Assembly: GCA_958296125.1 (NCBI GenBank)
Contig: OY282444.1
Location: 4,187,623 to 4,251,622, forward strand
Direction of reading: 5' to 3'
Length of the DNA: 64,000 nucleotides
Source of the DNA: an uncultured Poribacteria bacterium
Lineage (GTDB): Bacteria; Poribacteria; WGA-4E; PCPOR2b
Part shown: in pieces, positions 19,873 through 26,007 of the stretch
Layout of the letters: every line of letters begins with the position of its first letter
Position numbering within the stretch: position 1 is the stretch's first letter
The notes under the pieces: model-generated
Databases searched by the model: none
What the model was told of the DNA's origin: nothing
What the model saw: the letters and a program-made list of their open reading frames with translations, nothing else
Position numbers and translations under genes: made by a program

Positions 19873-21912
19873 TCATGTTGAATCTTGATCAGTTGATTCC
19901 TGTGCTTCTGTTTTGGCGGCAAGATCCAAGCCAGGAACGTATTGACTTACAGTCTTGGCGAGATTCTGGGGGTCAATCCCTCCAAAATTCAGGACCTCTT
20001 TCAGCATTGGCAGTGCTGCACCAGCCTGCAAAATGGATCCGAAGATCTTACCCATGTTCCCGCCTGGAGCACCGTTTCCGGATCCGTTTCCACCAAGGTC
20101 AAGGATGCGGATGCTTTCAATCTGTTCCGCGGGCTTCATCAATTGGCCTGTGACTTCGGGCAGGGATTGGATAAATGTCAGCAGTGCTTCGTTATTCAGA
20201 ATCCGCTGATCTACTGTGTTCTTTGCTTCGGTAAGTGCCTCTTCCCCCTCTGCCTTCGCTTTTGCTTCCACCAGAATCGCCTCCGCGAGGATTTTCTGCG
20301 CTTCTGCTCTGAGATTGGCGGCTTCTCGTTCCGCTTTAGCTGCTTCGACAACAACGTAGGCTTCGGCATTTGCCAGTCGCTCTTTTGCAACGCGTTCTTC
20401 ATCCGCCTTTTGTTCAGCTCTGATTAACGCGATTCGGCTGTCACGCTCGGCATCCTCAATCGCTTCCACCGTTAAGACTTGGGCTTCAGCTTTGGTTCTC
20501 TCGGCGGTTGCAGCCAACCGATCTGTGAAGGCAATTTCGCGCTCCTTCTCCTTCACCGCAATCTGAATTTCGCTTGCGGCTTGGGTCTCTTTTTCTTCCC
20601 GATTTTTCTCAACAAGCGCGATCCGTTTGACGATATTGGCTTCCTCAATCACCTGTTGCTGATGGATGCGTGCTTCTTCAACGGTGCGTTCCTGATCGAC
20701 TTTGGCTTGTTCAATGGCTCGGTCTCGATCAATTTCAATAGATTGAACTTCTTGCTCTTGAGACACACGCGCAGTCTCTAAAGCCCGTCTCTGTTCAATC
20801 CCTGCTTCTTGAACTTGCCGCTCCTGTTCAATTCGAGCGGTTTCAACCCTCTGTTTCTGTTGGATTTGCGAAGATTGCACAGCTTCTTCCTGACGGATGC
20901 GCGCCTCTTCAAGAGCTTGTTGCTGCTGAAGTTCTGCCTCCTTGACCGTCCGATCTTGTTCAATTCGAGCGGTTTCAATCCTCTGTTTCTGCTGGATTTG
21001 CGAAGATTGCACGGCTTCTTCCTGACGGATGCGCGCCTCCTCAAGGGTTTGTTGTTGCTGAAGTTCATGCTCTTCGACGGCACGATCTTGTTCAGATTTA
21101 TTCGTCGCAACCTCTTTGCGCTGCGTCTCTTGGGCAAATGCCAGACGCTTTTCGACCTCTAGGCTTTCTGTCTGGGTTGCCTCCTCCTGCTGCTTGATCG
21201 CCAGATCCGCTCTCAGCTTATCCTCTTCCTGCTTGACTCTGTTTTCATGCTTAATTCGCTCGGTTCTTGTTTGCCGTTCTTGCACCTCTTGGTTGATAGT
21301 CTGAATAGCAACGACATCAAAACGGTTGTTCTCATCCAGTTGGTCAAGAGGGGTCTGATCGAGGTTCGTCACCGCAACACTTTCGAGCTGAAAACCGTTC
21401 TGTTCGAGGTCATCTTTACAGTTTTCCCGAACCTGATCTGAAAAATCTTGACGCTTTTCATGAAGCTCTTGAAGCTCCATTGTGGCTGCCACACTCCGTA
21501 GTATCCCAACAAGTTTTCCTTCAAGCAGGGATTTCACATTCTCCGGCTCCAAGGTTTTATCCCCAAGACTTGCAACAGCATTGAGAACATCCTGTTCATT
21601 GGGTTCGATCTTCACATAGAATTGGGCTTCAATATCGACACGCAAGCTATCCTTTGTGATCAAGGCATCTGGTCCGGTCCGCTGAACTAAAAGCTGCATG
21701 GTATTCAACGAAACCAGTTGTGTTTCTTTTGTGAGCGGATTAACGATTTTACCGCCAAAGACAACACTCTTACTTTTACCGCCTGAGATTACCAATGCGG
21801 CATCGGCAGGTGCTTTTTTGTATAGGGCCTTGTAGGTAAAAAACATAATCAGGAAAAACGCTGCTATTACAACGATGATACCGAAAAAAGATGTCAAGCC
21901 AAGCCCCTCCAT
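19873..21912 (-). CDS. Flotillin / YqiK-like SPFH protein with 11-residue repeat coil
   Basis: 679 residues from the ATG at 21912, with AAGGAGG 6 bases upstream. N-terminal membrane anchor MEGLGLTSFFGIIVVIAAFFLIMFF, then an SPFH/band-7 domain (~30-210, with GKLVGILRSVAATMELQELHEKR). A long Glu/Gln/Arg-rich coiled coil (~215-560) follows, and a C-terminal oligomerisation region with GGNGSGNGAPGG. Fifteen 11-residue units occupy most of the coil. Flotillins organise membrane microdomains. E. coli yqiJ-yqiK has the same order as this gene and its upstream neighbour, which supports a YqiK-type assignment. Confidence 0.88.
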   Translation of the reverse strand: MEGLGLTSFFGIIVVIAAFFLIMFFTYKALYKKAPADAALVISGGKSKSVVFGGKIVNPLTKETQLVSLNTMQLLVQRTGPDALITKDSLRVDIEAQFYVKIEPNEQDVLNAVASLGDKTLEPENVKSLLEGKLVGILRSVAATMELQELHEKRQDFSDQVRENCKDDLEQNGFQLESVAVTNLDQTPLDQLDENNRFDVVAIQTINQEVQERQTRTERIKHENRVKQEEDKLRADLAIKQQEEATQTESLEVEKRLAFAQETQRKEVATNKSEQDRAVEEHELQQQQTLEEARIRQEEAVQSSQIQQKQRIETARIEQDRTVKEAELQQQQALEEARIRQEEAVQSSQIQQKQRVETARIEQERQVQEAGIEQRRALETARVSQEQEVQSIEIDRDRAIEQAKVDQERTVEEARIHQQQVIEEANIVKRIALVEKNREEKETQAASEIQIAVKEKEREIAFTDRLAATAERTKAEAQVLTVEAIEDAERDSRIALIRAEQKADEERVAKERLANAEAYVVVEAAKAEREAANLRAEAQKILAEAILVEAKAKAEGEEALTEAKNTVDQRILNNEALLTFIQSLPEVTGQLMKPAEQIESIRILDLGGNGSGNGAPGGNMGKIFGSILQAGAALPMLKEVLNFGGIDPQNLAKTVSQYVPGLDLAAKTEAQESTDQDST
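20617..21111 (-). repeat. Fifteen 33-base (11-residue) tandem repeats in flotillin gene
   Basis: From the unit beginning VATNKSEQDRA to IEEANIVKRIA every eleventh residue is V, I or L, as in LEEARIRQEEA, VQSSQIQQKQR and IETARIEQDRT. A four-unit block (44 residues, 132 bases) is duplicated almost exactly. An 11-residue period fits a hendecad right-handed coil. Confidence 0.92.
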
Positions 21913-22094
21913 TTTGAACCTCCTTAAAAGGATACGAAAGTGAAGCACCGATAGCGCGACCAACTCACCAGCGATGGTTTATAGCACGTTTAGAGCTGCT
22001 ATTTTAACCGAAGTTGCTAATACTCCGTCAGATAAATGTTAATGTCCCCGCTGGCTACGGAAGCCCCCTCTGATCAAGGAGCAACTCGGATTAA

Positions 22095-22775
22095 TTATAA
22101 CGAAATGAGCGAACTATCCGCTTTCGTCACCTCGAAAATCCGTCCCCGTGAATCGTAGTCAATGAGAATCACCGTGTCTCCCTTTAAGGGAACATCGTCG
22201 TCCTCTCGGACACGACAACTGACGGTCAACTCGGGGCCAGCCGGCACCGGGACACGCGCGGTCCCAAAGGTTGTTGTGACCCGCCCGCTAATCACTCGCC
22301 CTCTTAAACCGATCAGGTGATAATCGTTAGTGGCACGGTCACTTTCAGGAAATAGCTTTGAAAGCCCTAGTGCTAGGTAACGGGTCCCGAATATACTACA
22401 CAGAAGGGCAGCCCCGACAGAGATCCAGAGTGTAGATCGCGAGGAGTGAACGGTGATACCCAGAATCTCATTAACAACCAACCCTGAAATTCCCCAAGTC
22501 GCAAAAAGTGCCATCAAGAGAATCGTAAAAGGCACCTTGCCAACGTTCAAAATTCCTAATACGCCGGGGATAAAGTTGTTTCCGCCCGAACTGCTGTCGA
22601 CATCAACATCTGCGTCCGGGTCAACATCGGCATCAACGTCCGCATCGGTGTCGCCTCCCCCAAAATCGAGACTGCCCATAATGAGTTGGAAGATGGCAAA
22701 AAGAAAGACGAACGCAATCGGTGCCGTAAACCAAACATTATACCAGACAAGGATGTAATTAAGAAAATCGCCCAT
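22095..22775 (-). CDS. YqiJ-like membrane protein (NfeD-related, OB-fold)
   Basis: 226 residues. Helices at ~12-35, ~75-98 and ~108-132 are separated by a striking Asp-rich segment (DTDADVDADVDPDADVDVDSSSGG, ~42-65). A C-terminal beta domain (~150-226, GLRGRVISGRVTT... VILIDYDSRGRIFEV) fits the OB-fold of NfeD/YqiJ proteins, which partner flotillins. The gene lies directly upstream of the YqiK-like flotillin, as in E. coli yqiJ-yqiK. The acidic loop could bind cations (inference). Confidence 0.8.
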   Translation of the reverse strand: MGDFLNYILVWYNVWFTAPIAFVFLFAIFQLIMGSLDFGGGDTDADVDADVDPDADVDVDSSSGGNNFIPGVLGILNVGKVPFTILLMALFATWGISGLVVNEILGITVHSSRSTLWISVGAALLCSIFGTRYLALGLSKLFPESDRATNDYHLIGLRGRVISGRVTTTFGTARVPVPAGPELTVSCRVREDDDVPLKGDTVILIDYDSRGRIFEVTKADSSLISL

Positions 22776-22794
22776 ATCTGCTCCCGCCTACAAG

Positions 22795-23172
22795 TCAATC
22801 CCGGCAAGCGGAAATCAACGCCATTGCGCGTTTGGCATCGTGGTAGCTAATGTTGCTAATCAGATGTTTACCCTCGTTCACCTTAATTTCGAGGTCAGCT
22901 TGCCCAAAGATGCAGTGTTTGAGATTTCGGTCCAGTTTGACTGACGTAATCTGAGCAAACGAAAGGTTACACCGAATGTTGATGTAGGAAGCACTCAGAC
23001 TCCCCATTTGACGCTCCTCTAACACCAACACTCGGTCAGAGGTGATAACGACAAAATCGGGGTTCAGCAGATTAGACCTCCCAAGCATACACAATCTGAC
23101 CTGCTCATCCGCATTCAGTTGGGCTTGGGTTGTTTCTTGAATGCGAGATGGTAATCGATGAAATTCAGCCAT
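22795..23172 (-). CDS. PH-like domain protein
   Basis: 125 residues from the ATG at 23172; its GGAG lies in the end of the upstream gene, whose stop is only a few bases away, showing translational coupling. Pattern VRLCMLGRSNLLNPDFVVITSDRVLVLEERQ... INIRCNLSFAQITSVKLD... FGQADLEIKVNEGKHLISNISYHDAKRAMALIS matches bacterial pleckstrin-homology-like (SHOCT/YokE-type) barrels. Probably a membrane- or protein-binding adaptor working with the PspA homologue encoded just before it. Confidence 0.65.
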   Translation of the reverse strand: MAEFHRLPSRIQETTQAQLNADEQVRLCMLGRSNLLNPDFVVITSDRVLVLEERQMGSLSASYINIRCNLSFAQITSVKLDRNLKHCIFGQADLEIKVNEGKHLISNISYHDAKRAMALISACRD

Positions 23173-23177
23173 CCGCG

Positions 23178-23903
23178 TCACTCCGTTGGGGACGAACCTT
23201 CTTGATTTTTAGGATGGACTTTGGTTTTCAGTGCCGCAAGATCTGCCTCGACCTTTTCGTTGCTCTCCAGTTCATGAAATTTCCGCTCAAGGTCATCGCC
23301 TTGCGTCAACTCGGCTAACGCTTCCGCCTGTGCTTCAAAATCTCGGACGCGGTCAACCATCCGATCGTAGGCATCGAATGTTGCTTGGAATCCCGATCCT
23401 ATCGGGGCGGTTGTGTCAATCGTTGTATCAGCCTGTGCCGTTGAAGCAACAGGGGATTGAAGCGCCCCTAAACTTTCAGCAGCAGCTAATTTCGCAGTTT
23501 GATACCGCATCGTGTCTAGATTGGTTTCCAACGTTTTCAAACTGGACTTGAGGGAGTCGATTATCTCCTGCTGTGTATCAATCTGCTCACGATACCGGTC
23601 CGCTTTGCTGAGATGCTCACCTTTGCGGGTGAGTGCGCGGCGAGCCAGATCTTCCTCCCCTTTTTTTAGGGCAAAGACCGCCTTCTCTTCCCACCTTCTG
23701 GCTTCGCCCCCCTGCGTGTCGATCTCCCGTTCTATTAGCTTGAGATCGGCAATCGCACTAGCAATCAAAGTCTTGACATAGCGGACGTTATGACGCATCT
23801 CTTCTACCACCAGACCGCGCGTTTTGCGCGTATCTTCCACCTTTATGAGGAGATCGTTCACATGCGATCTCACGATAAGCTTGGCTCGATTTAACGTTTG
23901 CAC
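23178..23903 (-). CDS. PspA/IM30-family protein, second copy
   Basis: 241 residues with GTG start (AAGGAGG 9 bases upstream). Helical throughout: AKLIVRSHVNDLLIKVEDTRKT resembles the PspA N-terminal helices, then ARRWEEKAVFALKKGEEDLARRAL, as in PspA. The linker before the last helix pair is ~20 residues longer than in the other copy and contains a translated family A repeat (SGFQATFDAY encoded around 23380-23410). First gene of the block, 69 bases downstream of a sigma-54-like promoter. Shares the operon with PH-like and YqiJ-like genes. Confidence 0.85.
   Translation of the reverse strand: MQTLNRAKLIVRSHVNDLLIKVEDTRKTRGLVVEEMRHNVRYVKTLIASAIADLKLIEREIDTQGGEARRWEEKAVFALKKGEEDLARRALTRKGEHLSKADRYREQIDTQQEIIDSLKSSLKTLETNLDTMRYQTAKLAAAESLGALQSPVASTAQADTTIDTTAPIGSGFQATFDAYDRMVDRVRDFEAQAEALAELTQGDDLERKFHELESNEKVEADLAALKTKVHPKNQEGSSPTE
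23380..23410. repeat. Family A palindromic repeat inside PspA-like CDS
   Basis: GTTGCTTGGAATCCCGATCC followed by TATCGGGGCGG, near-perfect family copy read in frame on the minus strand within a variable linker. Confidence 0.85.
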
Positions 23904-24197: not shown

Positions 24198-24816
24198 TGG
24201 AGGTGGCGGGACACGTGAATCCCCCGGTTTCCCAGAGGCGTGGACTATATCTTCATCCACCCAAAATGGTGGAGCCTAGCGTATTATAGGAGATGTAGAT
24301 TTGCCGCGATTTAAGTTTTGAACCGTTTCAACTTGTTGACATTATCTCCTATCATTACAGTCTCTACAGGACCAGACGATCCCTCGGTGTTGCCATAGGA
24401 TGTTGCCATCTCTTAGGTTTCACCGATGTAAGCCAGGTTTAATCGAGGAGGTTTCCCTCCAAGTCGACCAAACTGATCGAACCCGCGTCCGAGAGCAGTT
24501 CAATAAAGGTCACTACATGTTTAGCATAAGTTTTGGTGTTTCGTCCACAAGACTCCCTTATGCCGGATTCGCTGCGGACTATCTCAAGTTGCGTCTCGCA
24601 GCTTGCCCCTTGAGCACAAGCAAAGCGCAAAGCCCGTTTGTTGACGTCGGGCTAACTCGACGGGACCGCAAATTAGCCGGACGAGCCGCTTTATTAAGCA
24701 GCTAGAGCCAATTCTTCATCGGCAATTAAATTGTTTCCGCCTGTTTAACGAGGCCTGCGGAGACCTCGACATGCAACCTTTATGTCATCTACTCCCGTCG
24801 AAACCTTTTCACCCCC
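24198..24816 (-). ncRNA. ssrA: tmRNA (transfer-messenger RNA), gene split by a group I intron
   Basis: tmRNA frees stalled ribosomes together with SmpB and tags the peptide. The 5' end GGGGGTGAAAAGGTTTCGACGGG-type sequence begins at 24816. The tag frame ends ...ADEELALAA then TAA TAA (codons 24723-24697, stop 24696-24694); the resume codon may be GGA at 24738. The conserved tail TATGCTAAACATGTAGTG lies at ~24525-24505. The T arm reads GCGGGTTCGAT at 24486-24476 and then breaks off. Its missing half TCCCGC plus CACCTCCA appears 264 bases on (24211-24198). Joining the two restores a perfect T stem-loop, and CACCTCC pairs with the 5' GGGGGTG (one G-U). CCA is not encoded. Starts 24 bases after smpB, same strand. 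A weak ATCTT-AAGAT hairpin with TTTT follows the 3' end. Confidence 0.95.
24212..24475 (-). ncRNA. Group I self-splicing intron in tmRNA T-loop
   Basis: 264 nt with no room for a homing endonuclease. The 5' exon ends in U (24476) and the intron ends in G (24212), as group I splicing needs. P1: exon TCGAT pairs with GTCGA (24468-24464), giving the U-G pair at the splice site. P2: GGAGG-GAAA-CCTCC (24460-24447). P3: CCTGGC (24437-24432) with GCTAGG (24280-24275). P7: GACTGTA (24362-24356, in CTGTAGAGACTGTAA) with TATAGTC (24249-24243, in AAGATATAGTCC). Extra helix ATAGGAGAT/ATCTCCTAT (24352-24344/24294-24286) resembles the P7.1 of subgroup IA. P8: TCCACC/GGTGGA (24273-24256). P9: 7-bp stem with GAAA loop (24238-24221). 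Confidence 0.92.
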
Positions 24817-24840: not shown

Positions 24841-25305
24841 CTATCTAAGATACGATTGGATTGCTTGTTGATCTGCGTCTCGCCGCATATCTTCACGTTT
24901 ATCGTAATCGTGCTTACCCCGCGCCAGCGCAATTTCGACTTTCACCTTACCGCTACTGAAATAAGCCTTCGTCGGAACAAGCGTCATGCCGGTGGGTTGG
25001 GTTTTCCCATCGATCCGCTTAATCTCTCGACGGTTCAACAGGAGTTTCCGTTTACGCTTGGGCTCATGATTCTCACGATTGCCCTGCTCGTAAGGACCGA
25101 TATGGGCATCAATTAGAAAAACTTCGCCCTCTTCGACGCGAGCGTAGCTATCGGTTAAATTCATCCTACCCGCACGAATCGCCTTGACTTCCGTTCCCTG
25201 AAGCACCATCCCAGCCTCGAAACGATCCATCAGGTGATAATCATACCGCGCTTTCTTATTTCTAGCAACTGGCCCCGTGGTCGCGACAGACTTCGCATCT
25301 TCCAT
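24841..25305 (-). CDS. smpB: SsrA-binding protein SmpB
   Basis: 154 residues from the ATG at 25305; a longer upstream extension is not SmpB-like. All family marks are present: NKKARYDYHLMDRFEAGMVLQGTEVKAIRAG, the NLTDSYARVEEGEVFLID strand, and a basic tail beginning GKHDYDKRE. SmpB binds tmRNA and carries it to stalled ribosomes. Its C-terminal tail fills the empty mRNA channel. The gene for its RNA partner starts 24 bases downstream on the same strand, so the two are probably cotranscribed. Confidence 0.97.
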   Translation of the reverse strand: MEDAKSVATTGPVARNKKARYDYHLMDRFEAGMVLQGTEVKAIRAGRMNLTDSYARVEEGEVFLIDAHIGPYEQGNRENHEPKRKRKLLLNRREIKRIDGKTQPTGMTLVPTKAYFSSGKVKVEIALARGKHDYDKREDMRRDADQQAIQSYLR

Positions 25306-25491
25306 AGTTCGTGAATTATAGCACAAACGCGAAAGGGGTGCAAGGACAAAAGGCTTGATTATTTTTCGCATCCGTTGTAAAGTTATAGACAACATCCGAA
25401 ACGTGAATGAACCAAAGTGGTCGGTATACTCCGTGTGCCGTAACCACAGCTGAACTAATGAACCCAATATAAAATGTAACAGGAGAGATAG

Positions 25492-26007
25492 ATGCAGAAA
25501 TCCAAAGAGAAAATTCAAACGGGGTGGGAGGGGCGTTTTTACGAAGATTTTGAAGTCGGGGCTGTTTACCGGAGCAGGTTTGGGCATACGGTCACGGAAG
25601 CTGATAACGCGCTGTTCACCCAACTCACCCATAACACCAACCCGTTGCATTTTGACCAACGCTACGCCGAACAAACAAAGTGGGGGAAAATCCTCGTCAA
25701 CAGCACCTTCACACTATCACTGATTACCGGTATGAGCGTTCCGGAGGTCAGTGAGAACGCGATGGCGAATCTGGGATGGGAGGAAGTTAAGTTGCCGCAT
25801 CCAGTCTTCCTGGGGGATACCCTCTATTGCGAAACGGAGGTCTTATCGAAGCGAGAGTCGAAGTCCTATCCCGAAGCAGGCATCGCCAGGGTTTGCTCGC
25901 GCGGTATTAATCAGGACGGGGCAGTGGTCATCAACCTCGTGCGGGCTATCATGGTCTATAAACGAGACCGTGCTCCTAAGAAAGGGCTTTTTCCTGAAAT
26001 AGCTTAG
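25492..26007 (+). CDS. MaoC-family dehydratase (hot-dog fold)
   Basis: 171 residues. GRFYEDFEVGAVYRSRFGHTVTEADNALFTQLTHNTNPLHFDQRYAEQT is the MaoC/(R)-hydratase signature: the catalytic Asp-His pair lies in the D..F....N..HxD region. GKILVNSTFTLSLITG and FLGDTLYCETEVLSKRES complete the hot-dog fold. Members hydrate 2-enoyl-CoA or mesaconyl-CoA thioesters. With the class III CoA-transferase gene downstream (26196-27413) it suggests an acyl-CoA pathway. AGGAGAGA before the ATG. Confidence 0.85.
   Translation: MQKSKEKIQTGWEGRFYEDFEVGAVYRSRFGHTVTEADNALFTQLTHNTNPLHFDQRYAEQTKWGKILVNSTFTLSLITGMSVPEVSENAMANLGWEEVKLPHPVFLGDTLYCETEVLSKRESKSYPEAGIARVCSRGINQDGAVVINLVRAIMVYKRDRAPKKGLFPEIA

Follow-up and report, generated by a model that had tools for sequence, protein, structure and literature searches.

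A probably self-splicing group I intron with the remnant of a LAGLIDADG endonuclease in the T-loop of a tmRNA gene from a probable poribacterium

Intron-form tmRNA interrupted at T-loop position 7 has been described (Williams 2002, cited in PMC11915505), and 883 unique intron-form tmRNAs are now recorded from 21 phyla; their introns fall at four T-loop subsites, of which position 7 is the main one (PMC11915505). A first-pass annotation of the locus reported here, which regarded such introns as uncommon and known from only a few bacteria, is therefore out of date on this point. Endonuclease genes are present in 36 of the 883 forms (about 4%), and of the 23 endonuclease genes in the founding set, 19 lie in P7.1 (PMC11915505). 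A literature search for Poribacteria together with tmRNA returned nothing relevant.

The tmRNA gene in our window (the whole 64,000-nt stretch of DNA analysed, contig OY282444.1) lies on the minus strand at 24816..24198, and its intron is inserted between T-loop bases 6 and 7 (TTCGAT/T), with U at −1 and a terminal G, as in the described position-7 class (PMC11915505). By definition it is a position-7 form, a new member and not a new kind. Its length (264 nt) compares with a mean of about 293 bp for that class (PMC11915505), and P7.1 is the endonuclease site both there and in the lineage of the window; unlike the class as described, the window intron is probably poribacterial and retains the fossil of an endonuclease C-terminus. 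The introns of Neobacillus and relatives (L057–L080 except L072 and L074) share the insertion site (exon TTCGAT/TCCCGCC), but are only about 50–58% identical to the window intron and have no detected fossil in the seven tested. Outside the genus, the Candidatus Poribacteria MAG Dive96_bin1.70 (G075, locus L072) is a distant member of the class to which the window belongs, a placement that underlies the probable assignment of the window to Poribacteria. In G075 an intron of 83.3% identity occupies the same site, likewise without an endonuclease and with a fossil tail, but with an expanded P6 and different end points of the ORF deletion. In the Elusimicrobia MAG nzgw215 (L074) the T-loop site, the core helices and the use of P7.1 to house the ORF are the same; in contrast to the window, the L074 ORF is intact and the T-loop reads TGCGATT.

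The Rfam tmRNA model (RF00023) matches 24808–24474 with 135.3 bits against a family cut-off of 47 (E 8.9e-53), leaving the T arm without its 3′ half and the acceptor stem without its 3′ strand. These missing parts lie beyond the 264-nt insert (24475..24212). The 5′ exon (24476..24816) begins with the acceptor 5′ strand GGGGGTG at 24816 and continues through the D-like domain, the tag frame, the pseudoknot region and the T-stem 5′ strand into the T-loop as far as TTCGAT, GCGGGTTCGAT being its last bases, at 24476. The 3′ exon TCCCGCCACCTCCA (24198..24211) supplies the last T-loop base and the 3′ strands of the T-stem and acceptor stem; CCA is only partly encoded in it. On the gene as it stands ARAGORN reports no tmRNA, whereas it finds a complete one on the exons joined in silico. 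The joined form has a 7-bp acceptor stem (GGGGGUG/CACCUCC) with G·U as its third pair (G3·U70) and the T-loop UUCGAUU, as read partly by inspection. The split of the gene, which the first-pass annotation had placed correctly to the base and on the correct strand, is reversed by joining in the way that it proposed for the T arm and the acceptor pairing. G3·U70 is the alanine identity pair of the acceptor stem. The tag frame predicted on the joined exons, GCC GAT GAA GAA TTG GCT CTA GCT GCT TAA (24694..24723, minus strand), encodes ADEELALAA, a tag with a hydrophobic ALAA-type end followed by stop.

No second tmRNA gene, and no standard tmRNA 3′ end free of an intron, was found elsewhere in the 5.16-Mb single-contig genome, in which the other matches to the tmRNA model are short and tRNA-sized. 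The ORF directly upstream of the tmRNA gene (24841..25674, minus strand) encodes SmpB, the tmRNA partner protein (PF01668, 191 bits); the profile spans residues 136–274, which places the real SmpB start probably near 25314. Downstream of the tmRNA gene, 19873–23903 holds a probable membrane-stress cluster, its members named by inspection only: a PspA-like coiled-coil protein, a small protein, an NfeD-like membrane protein and a flotillin-like protein.

The first-pass annotation had also assigned group I anatomy to the insert, and this is borne out by both a covariance-model match and a drawn fold. The group I model (RF00028) matches 24485–24221 over its full length, model positions 1–253 (36.2 bits, E 1.7e-7), the sole match across the 5.16-Mb genome. 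The score falls short of the 50-bit gathering score, a curation threshold and not a structural feature; the G075 intron, at the same site, reaches 48.4 bits. Within the intron (24212..24475, minus strand), P1, P2, P3, P4, P5, P5a, P6, P7, P7.1, P7.2, P8, P9 and P9.0 can be drawn and all close; P10 is weak. In P1 (24464..24480) the 5′-exon UCGAU (24480–24476) pairs with the internal guide GUCGA (24468–24464), with the U that precedes the intron forming a U·G pair at the splice site. P3 (24275..24437; CCUGGC, 24437–24432, with GCUAGG, 24280–24275), placed by drawing and comparison, encloses P4 (24426–24421/24389–24384), P6 (24383–24378/24373–24368), the P7 5′ strand and P7.1. P7 (24243..24362; GACU, 24362–24359, with AGUC, 24246–24243) is invariant in all four compared introns; as the guanosine-binding helix of group I introns it is expected to serve that role here. 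P7.1 (24286..24352) is formed by AUAGGAGAU (24352–24344) and AUCUCCUAU (24294–24286), and is the site of the endonuclease ORF in relatives, while the P9 hairpin CCUCUGG-GAAA-CCGGGGG (24221..24238) shows compensatory changes in G075 and in the Elusimicrobia relative. Group I introns of subgroup IA characteristically have a P7.1/P7.2 extension, and by this feature the window intron appears IA-like.

Comparison among introns supports the drawn helices to differing degrees. Across the three poribacterial introns (window, G005 from the same genus, and G075), 95.8% of 216 cells in the hand-drawn core are paired, and sliding the 3′ partners by 1 to 3 bases lowers pairing to 33–47%. Covariation within this set is uninformative because the three are too alike: two pairs have two-sided changes, and 56 of 500 shuffles reach as many. 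With the Elusimicrobia intron (L074) added, and with helix strands placed by hand in this four-genome comparison, 224 of 228 cells pair and 18 of 57 pairs are changed on both sides, including pairs in P1, P2, P4, P5a, P6, P7.1, P8 and P9. The most telling change is in P1, where L074 has the exon GCGAU and the guide GUUGC, a compensatory replacement of U-A by G-C across the splice site, i.e. exon and guide have changed together. In G075, to judge by the sequence, P6 has expanded into an extended hairpin whose arms are complementary.

Just after P2, all three poribacterial introns repeat the end of the 5′ exon, UCGAU, in the window at 24446–24442 (minus strand) and in G005 and L072 at the same place. 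The minimum-energy fold, together with inspection, pairs the guide GUCGA with this copy and not with the exon strand of P1. The repeat might conceivably give rise to spliceable and non-spliceable folds, in which case tmRNA maturation would be a regulated step controlled by competing guide pairings, but we regard this as very improbable.

Group I introns splice by a two-step guanosine pathway. For the window transcript we infer that the folded intron would present the exon end UCGAU to its guide in P1, with the U·G pair at the cut, and would take up an external guanosine at P7, leading to cleavage after U24476; the exons would then be joined at the terminal G24212. Such joining would restore a complete T arm and an acceptor stem of 7 bp bearing the G3·U70 alanine signal, and it can soundly be inferred that a functional tmRNA from this gene would depend on self-splicing. 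Taken as a whole, we are highly confident in the reading of the locus as a functional tmRNA gene with a self-splicing position-7 group I intron that has lost its endonuclease and kept the fossil of its tail; the low RF00028 score, the weak P10, the competing pairing in the minimum-energy fold and the hand placement of helix strands in the four-genome comparison weigh against it.

An intact LAGLIDADG ORF with its motif is absent from the window intron. What is present is a stretch encoding VETVQNLNRGKSTSPII (24282..24332, minus strand), with no start codon or body left, which corresponds to the C-terminal 17 codons of the ORF of G005; the DNA is 97% identical to the same stretch in G005, and none of 200 shuffles matches the score of the fossil. 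G005 has the same intron, 94.3% identical outside the extra ORF, and its P7.1 holds about 375 extra bases encoding MTDVEKAYLAGIIDGEG..., with a Pfam LAGLIDADG_3 match and the motif LAGIIDGEG. This ORF is frameshifted, and when bridged over the frameshift is similar to I-MsoI (E 3.6e-11) and I-CreI (E 2e-5). The intact ORF in P7.1 of the Elusimicrobia tmRNA intron is 36% identical to that of G005. The G075 intron, without an endonuclease, keeps the fossil C-terminus WLVETVQLLNRGK and apparently the first codons of the ORF, TTG ACA GAG; its deletion end points differ from those in the window, and the losses were probably independent. No endonuclease fossil beyond chance was found in seven Bacillota introns, bar a weak score in L066 (6 of 200 shuffles).

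These observations are best explained by descent of the window intron from a mobile ancestor that carried a single-motif LAGLIDADG homing endonuclease (I-CreI/I-MsoI type) in P7.1, of which the window copy would have kept only the C-terminal coding stretch. An alternative is that the V-E-T-V-Q stretch is no fossil, the ORF having entered G005 and borrowed existing intron sequence as its C-terminus. The stretch is short and is also part of P7.1, hence has a role in the RNA. However, alignment of the G005 ORF to I-CreI and I-MsoI runs as far as the last helix, its alignment to the Elusimicrobia ORF includes the V-E-T-V-Q residues, and G075 retains apparent codons from the other end of the ORF, all of which make borrowing unlikely. 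Given loss of the endonuclease gene from a once mobile ancestor, the window intron can probably no longer move and would now be passed on vertically.

Matches to the tmRNA model were found in all 59 relatives searched, 57 of them over the cut-off, some of these being short, tRNA-sized or fragments. In four species of the same genus (G001–G004) the T arm is uninterrupted (GGTTCGATTCCCGCC), representing the empty site. One genus thus holds the empty site (four species), the intron with a damaged endonuclease (G005) and the intron with a fossil only (the window), and it is these three states, together with the fossil itself, that this case adds to the known intron-form tmRNAs. They match steps in the invasion-decay cycle that has been put forward for homing introns, and such decay offers one explanation for the presence of endonucleases in only about 4% of tmRNA introns (36/883, PMC11915505). 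By rpoB, the intronless G004 is nearest to G005 (92.4%) and the species of the window falls outside the G002–G005 group; intron presence is patchy on this measure, and several gains or losses are needed. Two further genomes with truncated scores were rejected as carriers: in G043 a run of N interrupts a gene that is ordinary in other respects and has its T arm intact, and in G014 the contig ends at the T-loop. The G014 contig (L042, C225 end) stops exactly at ...GCGGGTTCGAT, the insertion point, and may hide a mixed intron-plus/intron-minus population.

The source of the intron was also considered. Between G075 and this genus, intron identity is 83% against an exon identity of 65%, which suggests that the intron may have moved horizontally between them; the signal is not decisive, since Bacillota pairs with 70–75% exon identity also have introns about 82% identical. 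For a phage source, scans of viral contigs found no instance of the intron 3′ end pattern and, with the Elusimicrobia endonuclease, no confirmed relative, and a tblastn search of phage records with the G005 endonuclease yielded nothing beyond a 32% match to a single Sphingobium phage.

Within the genus, the only other carrier found, G005 (L041, C42), has an intron-bearing tmRNA lacking 25 nt of the 5′ domain (in the D-like part), and a deletion of ~30 nt in its smpB removes the C-terminal tail and fuses smpB to the ORF that follows; G005 yielded neither a further SmpB nor another tmRNA. Trans-translation may be decaying in G005, or the metagenome assembly may be wrong. In the former case such decay could occur in the genus, and the window intron could be splicing-dead and its tmRNA a pseudogene, with the cell using another ribosome-rescue route. 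In the window, however, SmpB is intact, as are the two exons, the tag and the acceptor stem, and each of the group I helices can be closed; we consider a dead intron highly unlikely. That the interruption is an artefact of assembly or misbinning has a negligible probability: there are several metagenome assemblies among the genomes compared, but the window sits in one 5.16-Mb contig with the insert next to smpB, and the same insert recurs at the same base in G005 and G075, in other species and on other contigs, with conserved structure.

The locus extends a known oddity to probable Poribacteria, and illustrates how standard tools overlook genes of this kind: ARAGORN finds none, Rfam truncates the tmRNA, and the intron lies under the Rfam cut-off. 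Two further features were noted in the compared genomes. G046 (L045, C1:113568-113916) has a second, divergent tmRNA gene with a tRNA-like sequence beside it; the gene may sit on a mobile element or belong to a contaminant contig. In rpoB of the genus (L089/L092, G000, 3420630–3424976) there is an apparent in-frame insert of ~200 residues near profile positions 250–300.
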